Below, piece by piece: positions 23-6,746 of a DNA stretch of 22,128 nucleotides. A model generated the notes under the pieces. The model ran no database searches and was not told the origin of the DNA. It saw only the letters and a program-made list of their open reading frames with translations. Source of the stretch: a virus; the IMG/VR virus record IMGVR_UViG_3300042866_001100, positions 1 through 22,128 of that record; one strand, 5' to 3'. The first letter of the stretch is position 1; each line of letters starts with the position of its first letter. Both the position numbers and the translations under genes were made by a program.

Positions 23-109
23 TGCGGGGTGTCAGAAGCCTGGTATCTGGCCGGTTTCATAATCCGGTGCCTATGTGCCTCGGAGGTTCAAATCCTCCCC
101 CCGCTACCA
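23..109 (+). tRNA. tRNA-Met (CAT), initiator-like, with expanded variable loop
   Basis: The anticodon loop TTCATAA gives CAT. The acceptor pairs GCGGGG with CCCCGC, but the terminal 1-72 pair is a T-T mismatch. An unpaired 1-72 position is the hallmark of bacterial initiator tRNA, and the D-loop AGCCTGGTA matches that of E. coli tRNA-fMet. The T-arm is GGAGG-TTCAAAT-CCTCC and CCA is encoded. Two things are odd: the 31-39 pair is T-T, and the variable region is about 14 nt because the short word GTGCCT occurs twice in tandem. Initiator identity is inferred, since the usual three G-C pairs of the anticodon stem are not intact. Confidence 0.8.
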
Positions 110-3121: not shown

Positions 3122-3217
3122 TTGTCGGTACGGGCTTGAAACTCTATCTGGTGTGCCCTTAAACACTTGATCGGTCACTGGGTGTTATGCTTTGTGCAGA
3201 ACCCAACTGGCGATAAC
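3121..3217 (+). ncRNA. Structured inter-tRNA RNA of unknown class
   Basis: GTTGTCG (3121-3127) can pair with CGATAAC (3211-3217), a 7-bp closing helix with one G-U. Inside are GGGC/GCCC (3132-3135 with 3155-3158) and TGGGT/ACCCA (3179-3183 with 3201-3205). There is no T-arm consensus and no ORF, so it is not a standard tRNA. It begins on the last base of the 54-aa gene's stop codon and ends 22 nt before tRNA-Pro. Pairings were found by eye; the class is unknown. Confidence 0.4.
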
Positions 3218-3239
3218 TGAAATATAGTTTAGATTTTAT

Positions 3240-3405: not shown

Positions 3406-3414
3406 AATTTGCTA

Positions 3415-3497
3415 GTTTGAACGTAACCACAATACGGTGGACGAGGAGATAGACTCCGCTTAGACTCATAGAGAAATCTATGAAGGCGGCTTCAAAC
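3415..3497 (+). ncRNA. Cloverleaf-like structured RNA that is not a canonical tRNA
   Basis: GTTTGAA (3415-3421) pairs perfectly with TTCAAAC (3491-3497). Three hairpins lie inside: CCAC/GTGG (3427-3430 with 3437-3440), GGAG/CTCC (3445-3448 with 3454-3457) and CATAGA-GAAA-TCTATG (3467-3482), the last with a GNRA tetraloop. The size (83 nt) and the four-way layout mimic a class II tRNA. However, there is no T-arm next to the closing helix, no 7-nt anticodon loop and no CCA. It sits between tRNA-Leu and tRNA-Ser. The class is unknown. Confidence 0.5.
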
Positions 3498-3512
3498 GGT
3501 ACACAATTTTAT

Positions 3513-3604
3513 GGTTGATAGGCAGATATAAGCTGGCTGCATCAGTCTTGAAAACTGAGTTCGTTGAAAGACGAAGGTCCGGGCAGTACGGACATCAACC
3601 GCCA
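3513..3604 (+). tRNA. tRNA-Ser (TGA) with non-canonical T-loop
   Basis: The acceptor GGTTGAT pairs with ATCAACC, G73 is the serine discriminator and CCA is encoded. The anticodon arm is TCAGT-CTTGAAA-ACTGA (TGA), and the long variable arm has stem TTCGT/ACGAA. The D-stem is GCAG/CTGC. The T-stem GTCCG/CGGAC is perfect, but its 7-nt loop is GGCAGTA, not TTCRANY, and position 8 is A instead of T. Every stem is intact, so this does not look like decay. Confidence 0.8.
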
Positions 3605-3610
3605 CTTTAT

Positions 3611-3700
3611 GGAAGTGACGTAGATAGTTAGGTTTCTACAGCAGTTTGCTAAACTGCCGTGGTCTAAAAGCCACTGAGGGGGCAGCACCCTTCGCTTCCG
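3611..3700 (+). tRNA. tRNA-Ser (GCT) with non-canonical T-loop, no encoded CCA
   Basis: The acceptor GGAAGTG pairs with CGCTTCC, with G73. The anticodon arm is GCAGT-TTGCTAA-ACTGC (GCT), the D-stem is GTAG/CTAC, and the variable arm is GTGG/CCAC. The T-stem GAGGG/CCCTT closes a loop GGCAGCA, nearly identical to that of the neighbouring Ser(TGA) tRNA, and position 8 is again A. The next three bases are CGC, so CCA must be added after transcription, unlike most tRNAs here. Confidence 0.78.
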
Positions 3701-4020: not shown

Positions 4021-4029
4021 CTTTATATA

Positions 4030-4129
4030 TGTCGGTTAAGGGTGTAATTTTAGAGAAATTGTAATGAGTGATCATCAGTTACAGGAGTAAAAACTAGTGA
4101 TCGAAAGATCCGTTCATCAAACACCGACA
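4030..4129 (+). ncRNA. Second inter-tRNA structured RNA with 7-bp closing helix
   Basis: TGTCGGT (4030-4036) pairs perfectly with ACCGACA (4123-4129). Inside are AATTT/AAATT with a 5-nt loop and a perfect GATC-GAAA-GATC hairpin (4099-4110) carrying a GNRA tetraloop. A long closing helix plus a GAAA hairpin near the 3' side is also the layout of the element at 3415-3497. The only ORFs inside are 11 and 7 codons. The class is unknown; pairings were made by eye. Confidence 0.42.
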
Positions 4130-4140
4130 ATCATTTCAAT

Positions 4141-4214
4141 CAGAAAGTAGATAATAATATAGTCGCACAACTCTGGGTTGTGAGGTACGGGTGCGAATCC
4201 CGTCTTTCTGACCA
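4141..4214 (+). tRNA. Unusual tRNA, formal anticodon CTG (Gln) but Pro-like acceptor
   Basis: The acceptor CAGAAAG pairs perfectly with CTTTCTG, giving C1-G72, a proline-type end. The anticodon stem CACAA/TTGTG closes the loop CTCTGGG. Counting from T33 the anticodon is CTG (Gln), while the proline triplet TGG sits one base further 3'. The T-loop is TGCGAAT (G at 55). The D-arm is weak, without GG. CCA is encoded. It could be a diverged proline tRNA, a Gln tRNA or a tRNA with altered decoding. Confidence 0.6.
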
Positions 4215-4221
4215 TTTTAAT

Positions 4222-4298
4222 CGGGGTGTATTGTCAATTAGGAGACGGCCTGATCTGGAGTCAGGAAGCTGCAGGTGCAAGTCCTGTCACCCCGACCA
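4222..4298 (+). tRNA. tRNA-Pro (TGG), second copy, with C33 and G55
   Basis: The acceptor CGGGGTG pairs with CACCCCG (C1-G72). The anticodon arm is CCTGA-TCTGGAG-TCAGG, so TGG is at 34-36, but position 33 is C instead of the near-universal T. The T-loop is TGCAAGT (G at 55). The D-loop AATTAGGA keeps GG, and CCA is encoded. A canonical Pro(TGG) tRNA exists at 3240. Confidence 0.75.
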
Positions 4299-4313
4299 TT
4301 TTATATGCTAGCT

Positions 4314-4391
4314 GCAATCTGGTGAGAACGTTGGCTTAGGATTGAACCTAAGTTATCAGCGGTGATGGGTTCGATTCCCATAGTTTGCACC
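4314..4391 (+). pseudogene. Degenerate tRNA-like element
   Basis: A normal T-arm (ATGGG-TTCGATT-CCCAT) is followed by AGTTTGC, which pairs with GCAATCT except for one T-T mismatch. The 3' end is ACCG rather than ACCA. The central arm CTTAGG/CCTAAG leaves only a 6-nt loop (or 8 nt if the last pair opens), so no anticodon can be read with confidence. The D region is too short for a standard arm if that stem forms. It may be a decayed class II tRNA or a specialised tRNA. Confidence 0.5.
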
Positions 4392-4400
4392 GTTTTTATA

Positions 4401-4625
4401 CCAGACAATGGTAGAGGTTTGAACTTGGCTAGGTCCGAAACAATAACCAACGGCTGTGTTCGGCTAATAATCTGTGGGTTAAATATGCCCATAAAACCGC
4501 CAAGGTGTCTGACATAAAACAATGTGCGTGTTGGGGATTGACTCCAACAGCGTGAGGGACACGATACACCCCTGTATGTCTGACCCGGACGAATCTGATC
4601 CAGATAGGATAGGGTTGATTTTTTG
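4401..4625 (+). ncRNA. Long structured non-coding stretch before the second tRNA-Ala
   Basis: There is no plausible ORF on the + strand. CAGACA (4402-4407) pairs with TGTCTG (4506-4511), with CTTGG/CCAAG nested inside and a TGGG/CCCA hairpin further in. A second part has TGTTGGGG paired with CTCCAACA (loop ATTGA), ATACA-CCCC-TGTAT, and ATCTG-ATC-CAGAT, then a T6 run at 4619-4624. TGTCTGAC occurs twice (4506 and 4577). It starts right after TTTTTATA (4393-4400) and may contain one or two RNAs. No known class is recognised. Confidence 0.4.
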
Positions 4626-4627
4626 AT

Positions 4628-4656
4628 TTGACTTATACTATATATTGGTATAAGAT
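4628..4656 (+). promoter_or_regulatory. Putative promoter of tRNA-Ala and the two-HTH gene
   Basis: TTGACT (4628-4633) and TAAGAT (4651-4656) are 17 bp apart, placing the start of transcription within a few bases of the tRNA 5' end. Confidence 0.55.
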
Positions 4657-4664
4657 ATTTAAAT

Positions 4665-5851: not shown

Positions 5852-6236
5852 GGGCGTGTACTGGTCTCGATTCAAAGATTAGTGTATGTTAGGCACGTAG
5901 AGGACGATAGTTGGCCTCTTTAATCATCTATCAAAAAATTAACTGCTACTAAGAAGAGCAAGGTAATCAGCTACAACTTTACTTCACGTAAGGAAGTCGC
6001 ACTCGCAGCCTAAGTGCTGCACATCTTTCACAATGATGTCTGATAATTGTGGAAGGTGTAAACTATCAGGCTAGACAATAAAATGTTCGGGTTTATTGTT
6101 TAAATCTTACTGAACAACCTTGATGTAAAGTTTGATGTTTTAGATTTACAACCATTGTATTGAAAAACAGATAAGCGTGTAGTCTGATGTATAACGATGT
6201 TTGAAGACGCGCGTTCGACTCGCGCCACGTCCACCA
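5852..6236 (+). ncRNA. ssrA: Transfer-messenger RNA (tmRNA)
   Basis: This one-piece tmRNA of 385 nt rescues stalled ribosomes and tags nascent chains for proteolysis. The 5' GGGCGTG pairs with the 3' CACGTCC, including G3-U70, the signal for alanine charging. The 3' part has the T-arm GCGCG-TTCGACT-CGCGC and CCA, and the 5' part has GGTCTCGATTC, a conserved tmRNA segment. The tag frame ends ...VALAA-stop (stop TAA at 6011), overlapping the usual GCAGC/GCTGC hairpin. If the resume codon is the Ala GCT at 5945, the tag is 22 residues, about twice the E. coli tag; a later resume codon cannot be excluded. The final ALAA is the classical ClpXP degron. The rest (about 6040-6190) holds the pseudoknot region. 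Confidence 0.93.
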
Positions 6237-6518: not shown

Positions 6519-6746
6519 ATGAGTAACATCAAATTGTCAAAGCTAGAAGCACAAAAGAAAGTTTACGAACTTACAGAAAAGTTGTTGCATACTAAGAAGG
6601 ATTTCAAGGACGTAGCAGCTGGATATAAGGAACGTATCAAAGAGTTGGAAAGTGAAATCAAAGCGGTTGTAGAGGATGCTGGAGGGTTGCCTTTGTCGGA
6701 TATCGGAGTGTTGCCTCAATCTGATACAATTGAAATGGATGGATAA
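6519..6746 (+). CDS. Small coiled-coil hypothetical protein (75 aa)
   Basis: Residues about 4-50 form one long charged helix with heptad spacing (L-x-K-L-E-A-Q..., K-E-R-I-K-E-L-E-S-E-I). A short Gly/Pro-containing tail ends in EMDG. There is no membrane segment. Its start has no Shine-Dalgarno; the upstream sequence shared with the divergent gene contains ATAAATAT. A terminator follows 23 nt after the stop, making it a single-gene unit. It may be a structural or scaffold-type helper, but nothing in the sequence decides this. Confidence 0.65.
   Translation: MSNIKLSKLEAQKKVYELTEKLLHTKKDFKDVAAGYKERIKELESEIKAVVEDAGGLPLSDIGVLPQSDTIEMDG

Follow-up and report, generated by a model that had tools for sequence, protein, structure and literature searches.

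Two phage serine tRNAs point to a large set of tRNAs with compensated changes at the elbow

Background

The T-psi-C loop and the G18-G19 dinucleotide are textbook constants of tRNA. Alternative elbow pairs have been obtained in laboratory-selected suppressor tRNAs, and T-loop cleavage is reported for some contact-dependent inhibition toxins. The published geometry of the elbow comprises a reverse-Hoogsteen pair between positions 54 and 58, which closes the T-loop, a pair between positions 18 and 55, and an exposed pair between positions 19 and 56 (PMC4810234, PMC7912444).

In the non-proteinogenic tRNA-Gly of Staphylococcus aureus, a single isotype, GG is replaced by UU or CU, and weak EF-Tu pairs are considered to keep these tRNAs out of translation (PMC4052509). 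A spare tRNA set, arranged as a long array, is found in the trn operon of Anabaena, which stands beside the housekeeping set and is induced together with rtcB under translational stress (PMC10272220). For tRNA-targeting defenses, the sites of attack described in the open-license literature are the CCA tail, the anticodon loop and the variable loop, and escape through the T-loop is unreported there; Cas12a3 also contacts the T-arm backbone (PMC12851939). In the same literature we found no earlier report of elbow-rewritten tRNAs such as those described below.

Two serine tRNAs with an altered elbow

The window analyzed here is a virus record of 22,128 bases, which carries T4-like baseplate genes and PhoH. 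ARAGORN finds 12 tRNAs and one tmRNA in it. Two adjacent serine tRNAs (Table 1), to which an earlier note had drawn attention, are reported neither by ARAGORN nor by an Rfam tRNA search of the window, even at E<=5. Both genes have the long variable arm and the 7/4/5/5-bp cloverleaf of a bacterial class II tRNA-Ser. All stems pair, as the note had stated (acceptor 7/7, D 4/4, anticodon 5/5 and T 5/5 in each gene, including one T-G pair in the acceptor stem and one G-T pair in the T stem of tRNA-Ser(GCU)), and we confirm its reading of the serine anticodons TGA and GCT, here found with T33, of G73, of A8 and of the two T-loops. The genes thus depart from the tRNA-Ser norm in having no TTCRANY T-loop, no G18-G19 and no U8. 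Minimum-energy folding predicts essentially the cloverleaf for both genes (z = -3.0 and -3.7), and we found no alternative fold with TTC as part of the T-loop.

The D-loops of both tRNAs carry A-G at the expected position of G18-G19. The T-loop change therefore has a D-loop partner, which the earlier note had missed: G18-U55 becomes A18-G55, U54-A58 becomes G54-G58, G19-C56 is kept, and U8-A14 becomes A8-A14. Of note, the GGCAGYA heptamer alone was rejected as a signal, with 10 matches in the window against 1.8 expected, mostly outside tRNAs; what lies above chance is its position within full cloverleaves.

Two further tRNAs of the cluster carry G55. We define the rewritten set by G55 with A18, the 54-58 pair being either other than U-A or kept as U54-A58. 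Both serine tRNAs and the Pro-like tRNA belong to this set, and tRNA-Gln(CUG) does so in part: its D-loop lacks a clear G19, making it an imperfect member. Identical copies of the tRNA-Gln(CUG) gene occur in two other loci (L030 and L039). The Pro-like gene gives a sub-threshold Rfam tRNA match at 4224-4292 and has blastn matches in the loci of 31 relatives, the best of them at 98-100% identity.

Table 1. Features of the tRNA cluster and its surroundings in the window
Position	Strand	Feature	Observations
25-103		tRNA-like gene, CAT anticodon	Unusually long variable region; sub-threshold in Rfam
3130-3232		Conserved non-coding stretch inside the tRNA cluster	Found in 27 related loci
3406-3512		Conserved non-coding element adjoining the Ser tRNAs	89% identical in L016; contains a hairpin whose arms vary in matching fashion
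3513-3604	+	tRNA-Ser(UGA), class II	T-loop GGCAGTA; D-loop ATATAAGCTGG; A18 G19; A8; G73; coordinates include encoded CCA
3611-3700	+	tRNA-Ser(GCU), class II	T-loop GGCAGCA; D-loop ATAGTTAGGTTT; A18 G19; A8; G73
4021-4140		Conserved non-coding stretch inside the tRNA cluster	Found in 11 related loci
4141-4214	+	tRNA-Gln(CUG), G55	T-loop TGCGAAT; D-loop AATAATATA
4222-4298	+	Pro(UGG)-like tRNA, G55	T-loop TGCAAGT; D-loop AATTAGGA; A18-G19; C33 replacing U33; CCA encoded
4306-4390		tRNA-like sequence	Odd six-base anticodon-type loop; normal T-loop TTCGATT; weak tRNA-Sec match; 97-100% conserved across 7 loci
4396-4664		Non-coding stretch between tRNAs, including GTGAGGGACACGATACACCCCTGTAT	Conserved in 31 related loci; best identity about 95-97% over 265 bases; possibly an unknown structured RNA
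5852-6236		Phage-encoded tmRNA	Canonical T-loop; tag peptides differ among relatives' tmRNAs

Conservation among relatives

We searched IMG/VR for relatives of tRNA-Ser(UGA) with a bait made of the D arm only, leaving the T-loop unconditioned. This search returned 18 contigs, and GGCAGTA is present in 17 of the 17 with a readable T arm. For tRNA-Ser(GCU), a first bait contained the T-loop, and the loop invariance that it gave was set aside; repeated with the D and anticodon arms and the T arm left out, the search returned 22 contigs, all with a GGCAGYA loop (22/22) and none with TTC. That relatives keep the loop even when it is left free in the search supports the proposal of the earlier note that it is selected rather than decayed, and relatives with intact stems and random T-loops were not encountered among them.

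Among 15 distinct tRNA-Ser(GCU) sequences, in which the T-loop was fixed by the bait, most stem pairs vary and are always compensated; A8 and G73 are invariant. A8 is present in all 22 distinct variants of the two serine tRNAs compared. In one locus (L016), the variant tRNA-Ser(UGA) adjoins a canonical tRNA-Ser(UGA). A bait for canonical tRNA-Ser(GCU) found no matches and hence gave no control, and blastn of the serine tRNAs against cultured phages found no close relatives.

Covariation of the elbow across isotypes

Fetched loci were then analyzed with a custom scanner that disregards the T-loop and requires the acceptor, D, anticodon and T stems, at standard lengths, as well as U33. It recovers both serine tRNAs and every ARAGORN tRNA of the window, misses the Pro-like gene (C33) and the Met-like gene at 25-103, and gives 0 matches in 1.6 Mb of dinucleotide-resampled sequence. 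G55 replaces U55 in about 400 distinct tRNAs of all 20 isotypes, mostly from uncultured phages; these counts are of distinct sequences, not of independent events, and the baits bias the TGC class and the serine T-loops. A serine-only explanation was thus ruled out, the same change being seen in every isotype. The G55 T-loops fall into four classes, TGCRANY, GGCRGNA, AGCRTNA and CGCRA, and the D-loops have A-G at the G18-G19 position.

When the count is restricted to 7-nucleotide D-loops, which leave no ambiguity about positions 18 and 19, and all bait-matching tRNAs are removed, 169 tRNAs have G,U at positions 18 and 55 and 68 have A,G; the remainder are G,C (4), U,U (3), A,U (1) and G,G (1). 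GG D-loops accompany T-loops of the TTCRA class in 151 of 152 cases and of the ATC class in 6/6; AG D-loops accompany the TGCRA (88/89, bait-matching TGC tRNAs included), GGC (10/10), AGC (21/21) and CGC (3/3) classes. The 54-58 pair is U-A, G-G, A-U or C-A, with few exceptions. The ATC class, in which 54-58 is swapped and U55 and G18 are retained, indicates that 18-55 and 54-58 vary independently. Where C56 differs, position 19 usually differs too: A19-U56 occurs in five unambiguous cases, and U19-A56 and C19-G56 were also seen by inspection. All three elbow contacts therefore covary. Positions 53-61 are G-C in 1091 of 1103 tRNAs.

The earlier note had expected a different elbow in the two serine tRNAs. 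The contacts have indeed changed; however, since the partners changed together, the elbow is probably rebuilt with matching partners rather than lost, and the change is specific neither to serine nor to this phage. The A-G and G-G pairs would then physically form in the rewritten elbow.

Same-anticodon tRNAs in U55 and G55 versions have cores 84-96% identical. Examples are the Leu(UAG) tRNAs of L034 (TAATAGAAGC/TGCAAGT) and L044 (TAATGGCAGC/TTCAAGT), whose cores are 94-96% identical, and the Gly(UCC) tRNAs of L036 (AATAGTA/TGCAATT) and L018 (AATGGTA/TTCGATT), 92% identical. One isotype takes different elbow solutions in different genomes. These pairs show repeated and recent switching between U55 and G55 with both loops changed.

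Relaxed constraint or decay into pseudogenes is hardly tenable as an explanation. One might invoke the C33 of the Pro-like gene or tRNA-Ser(GCU), where G73 at 3700 is followed by CGC and CCA is therefore not encoded; however, this reading is contradicted by the covarying elbow, and against it also stand the compensated stems, the retention of identity elements and the loop shared by relatives that were fetched with the T-loop left free.

Genomic distribution and neighboring genes

Many IMG/VR contigs carry such tRNAs among the matches listed, and some of these 'virus' records could be bacterial. Among 289 genomes of the phylum of one Verrucomicrobia genome (G001), 9 match one bait, and five of the 9 have chromosomal arrays in which almost all of the 11-28 tRNAs have G55. 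In another part of its genome, G001 has a normal tRNA set as well, with high scores. In 447 genomes of Pseudomonadota and Bacteroidota, the same bait gave 10 pattern matches, with no cloverleaf among them.

RNA-repair genes lie near several arrays: RtcB, TROVE/Ro60 or the RNA-repair polymerase RlaP adjoins four of the five Verrucomicrobiota arrays, and RtcB or TROVE is found in 6 of 19 virus records. TROVE lies within the tRNA cluster in two of these records and about 3.5 kb off in one; RtcB lies about 0.9 to 4.2 kb from the tRNAs in three. Neither RtcB, TROVE nor RlaP was seen next to the tRNA array in the window's own fragment, and no RNA ligase was found in the searched records of its family. 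Three loci (L227:8043-11650, L234:5676-9060 and L235:5402-8450) have, close to RtcB, an array of 26-31 tRNAs whose elbows are nearly all rewritten.

The one case that we found among cultured phages is a tRNA-His. Its D-loop is AAAAGTA and its T-loop is GGCAGTA or GGCGGTA; 33 Streptomyces phage records contain matches to it, and the stem differences among the seven copies read are compensated. In phage Jay2Jay it adjoins a second annotated tRNA-His, and the corresponding neighbor in phage Evy has a canonical T-loop. Clusters in Arthrobacter phage Atuin, Pseudomonas phage PaP1 and Streptomyces phages Ankus and Byblos likewise cover many isotypes in large phage genomes, but they differ in having no G55 among the 85 tRNAs of the four regions. 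In Atuin, the region (L209, 16543-22226) contains a Ro-like protein gene and three ATC-class T-loops. No G55 was found in tRNA arrays on Bifidobacterium, Mycobacterium and Curtobacterium plasmids. On the Bifidobacterium breve megaplasmid pMP7017 (L253), a tRNA array that encodes an RNA ligase as well contains two tRNAs, at 6702 and 8063, whose T-loop is TCCGANT, with C55; a few IMG/VR loci have C55 too.

Integration into tRNA genes is common, and dense arrays with varied T-loops may suggest selection on the DNA itself: rewriting would prevent recombination between tRNA genes or integrase attachment at the T-loop, the D-loop change being mere compensation. We consider this very improbable, since lone rewritten tRNAs are common (many contigs have a single Met gene, for example), canonical loops are the rule in tRNA-rich cultured phages and plasmids, and the rewritten loops are not randomly diverse but return to fixed solutions such as GGCAGYA.

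Charging determinants and use as tRNAs

The rewritten tRNAs retain the elements expected for charging. Ala G3-U70 is present in 13/13 G55 tRNAs, and position 73 is G in Asp (12/12), U in Cys (20/20), G in Trp (10/10), A in Pro (18/18), A in Leu (26/27) and G in Ser (24/26). CCA is encoded by 381 of 410 G55 tRNAs, as compared with 645 of 694 U55 tRNAs; a purine occupies position 37 in nearly all of the G55 set, and long variable arms are found mainly in Ser, Leu and Tyr. In five loci (L124, L106, L139, L148 and L202), the rewritten Met(CAT) tRNA shares the C1-A72 mismatch of initiator tRNA, which suggests that initiators may be rewritten too. Judging from these comparisons, the rewriting, its covariation, its recurrence and the retention of charging determinants are very probably genuine.

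Such determinants bear on the idea that these are decoys, that is, tRNA-like RNAs with no role in translation that would occupy a host nuclease, a tRNA-fragment sensor or the Ro60 protein. A tRNA-like RNA of the Salmonella repair operon has been proposed as a nuclease inhibitor (PMC7790460), Ro60/TROVE genes lie inside or adjoin some of our arrays, and 20 loci contain both a canonical and a rewritten copy for one anticodon. However, the sets span all 20 isotypes, their anticodons, discriminators and CCA being as expected of proper tRNAs, and a decoy needs neither Ala G3-U70 nor an amino-acid-specific position 73; we therefore hold this explanation to be improbable.

Proposed escape from an elbow-reading enzyme

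The best explanation, in which our confidence is about even, is that these are spare tRNAs in working order, and that their rewritten elbow lets them escape an enzyme reading the T- and D-loops. They would be functional elongator tRNAs in which the D-loop/T-loop contact is altered by compensated substitutions; three-dimensional contacts are probably rebuilt, and use in translation is likewise probable. The L-shape should persist, as should the exposed 19-56 platform on which the ribosome and RNase P rely, and the letters recognized by elbow-reading enzymes (U54, U55, G18 and A58) are gone. Phages and RNA-repair-linked arrays would thus carry spare tRNAs, usable when such an enzyme attacks or alters those of the cell. 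Avoidance of a host nuclease or modification enzyme, as the earlier note had suggested, may be at work here. In favor of this explanation we count the covariation, the retained charging determinants, the recent switches, the RNA-repair neighbors and the elbow-specific look of the pressure. Against escape, no elbow-reading enzyme is tied to these genomes, RNA-repair neighbors are not unique to rewritten tRNAs (as seen in Atuin), and many relatives retain canonical tRNAs alongside the rewritten ones.

The other reading that we still regard as serious, and rate as rather unlikely, is modification independence: the elbow would be stable without m5U54, pseudouridine 55, Gm18 and m1A58, and tRNAs produced in a burst while the cell is infected or under repair would fold and function ahead of host modification enzymes or without them, so that an attacker would not be required. 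All four elbow modification targets do change together, no TruB gene was found in 20 records of the window's family, and pooled G55 tRNAs have fewer U at positions 8, 16, 20 and 39. However, most tRNAs of the same phages have a canonical elbow, and a general loss of modification sites is not seen within loci: U16, U20, U32 and U39 are not depleted there in G55 tRNAs, the decrease at U8 is no more than modest (z = -2.1), and U34 is lower (z = -2.6), possibly through the anticodon mix. Escape predicts elbow-specific change, several solutions and repeated switching, whereas modification independence predicts a general loss of modification-site uridines. The pressure thus looks elbow-specific, although this names no enzyme, and the within-locus result favors escape over modification independence, with limited power.

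More tentatively, we propose a 'stealth' second tRNA elbow, that is, translation-competent sets, carried by phages and RNA-repair islands, on which elbow-attacking or elbow-modifying enzymes could not act. If true, this implies widespread, still undescribed defenses or toxins that attack tRNAs by reading the elbow. Compensated natural replacements would also show the elbow to be a shape with an exchangeable code; rewritten sets would supply natural covariation data for its tertiary pairs and point to unknown elbow-reading enzymes. Jay2Jay and its relatives, with a rewritten tRNA-His beside a second one, offer a cultured system in which these ideas are testable now. The rewritten set is large and mostly overlooked, in phages as in bacteria: ARAGORN detects 2 of 60 GGC-class tRNAs, and since standard annotation misses almost all of this class, phage tRNA counts and codon-compensation studies are affected.

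Comparison with known systems

Phage tRNAs that evade host defenses are likewise altered to resist an attack on host tRNAs, by anticodon-loop mutations; the text describing them is silent on the T-loop, the D-loop and the elbow (PMC10264068). RtcB and Ro60 genes, which stand beside several rewritten arrays, also form an RNA-repair operon; in Salmonella this operon has Y RNAs with a tRNA-like domain, with no mention of a tRNA array or of elbow rewriting (PMC7790460). Unusual elbows are not described for the Anabaena spare set in PMC10272220, the single text on which this comparison is based.

The S. aureus tRNA-Gly likewise lacks G18-G19 (review PMC4052509). The serine tRNAs of the window differ from it in isotype and in having A18-G19 instead of UU or CU, and in the rewritten set as a whole, which covers all 20 isotypes, A18-G19 is accompanied by paired changes of the T-loop. 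Metazoan mitochondrial tRNAs also depart from the universal elbow (PMC4810234), but there the elbow is lost, whereas in the tRNAs described here it covaries and is probably kept.
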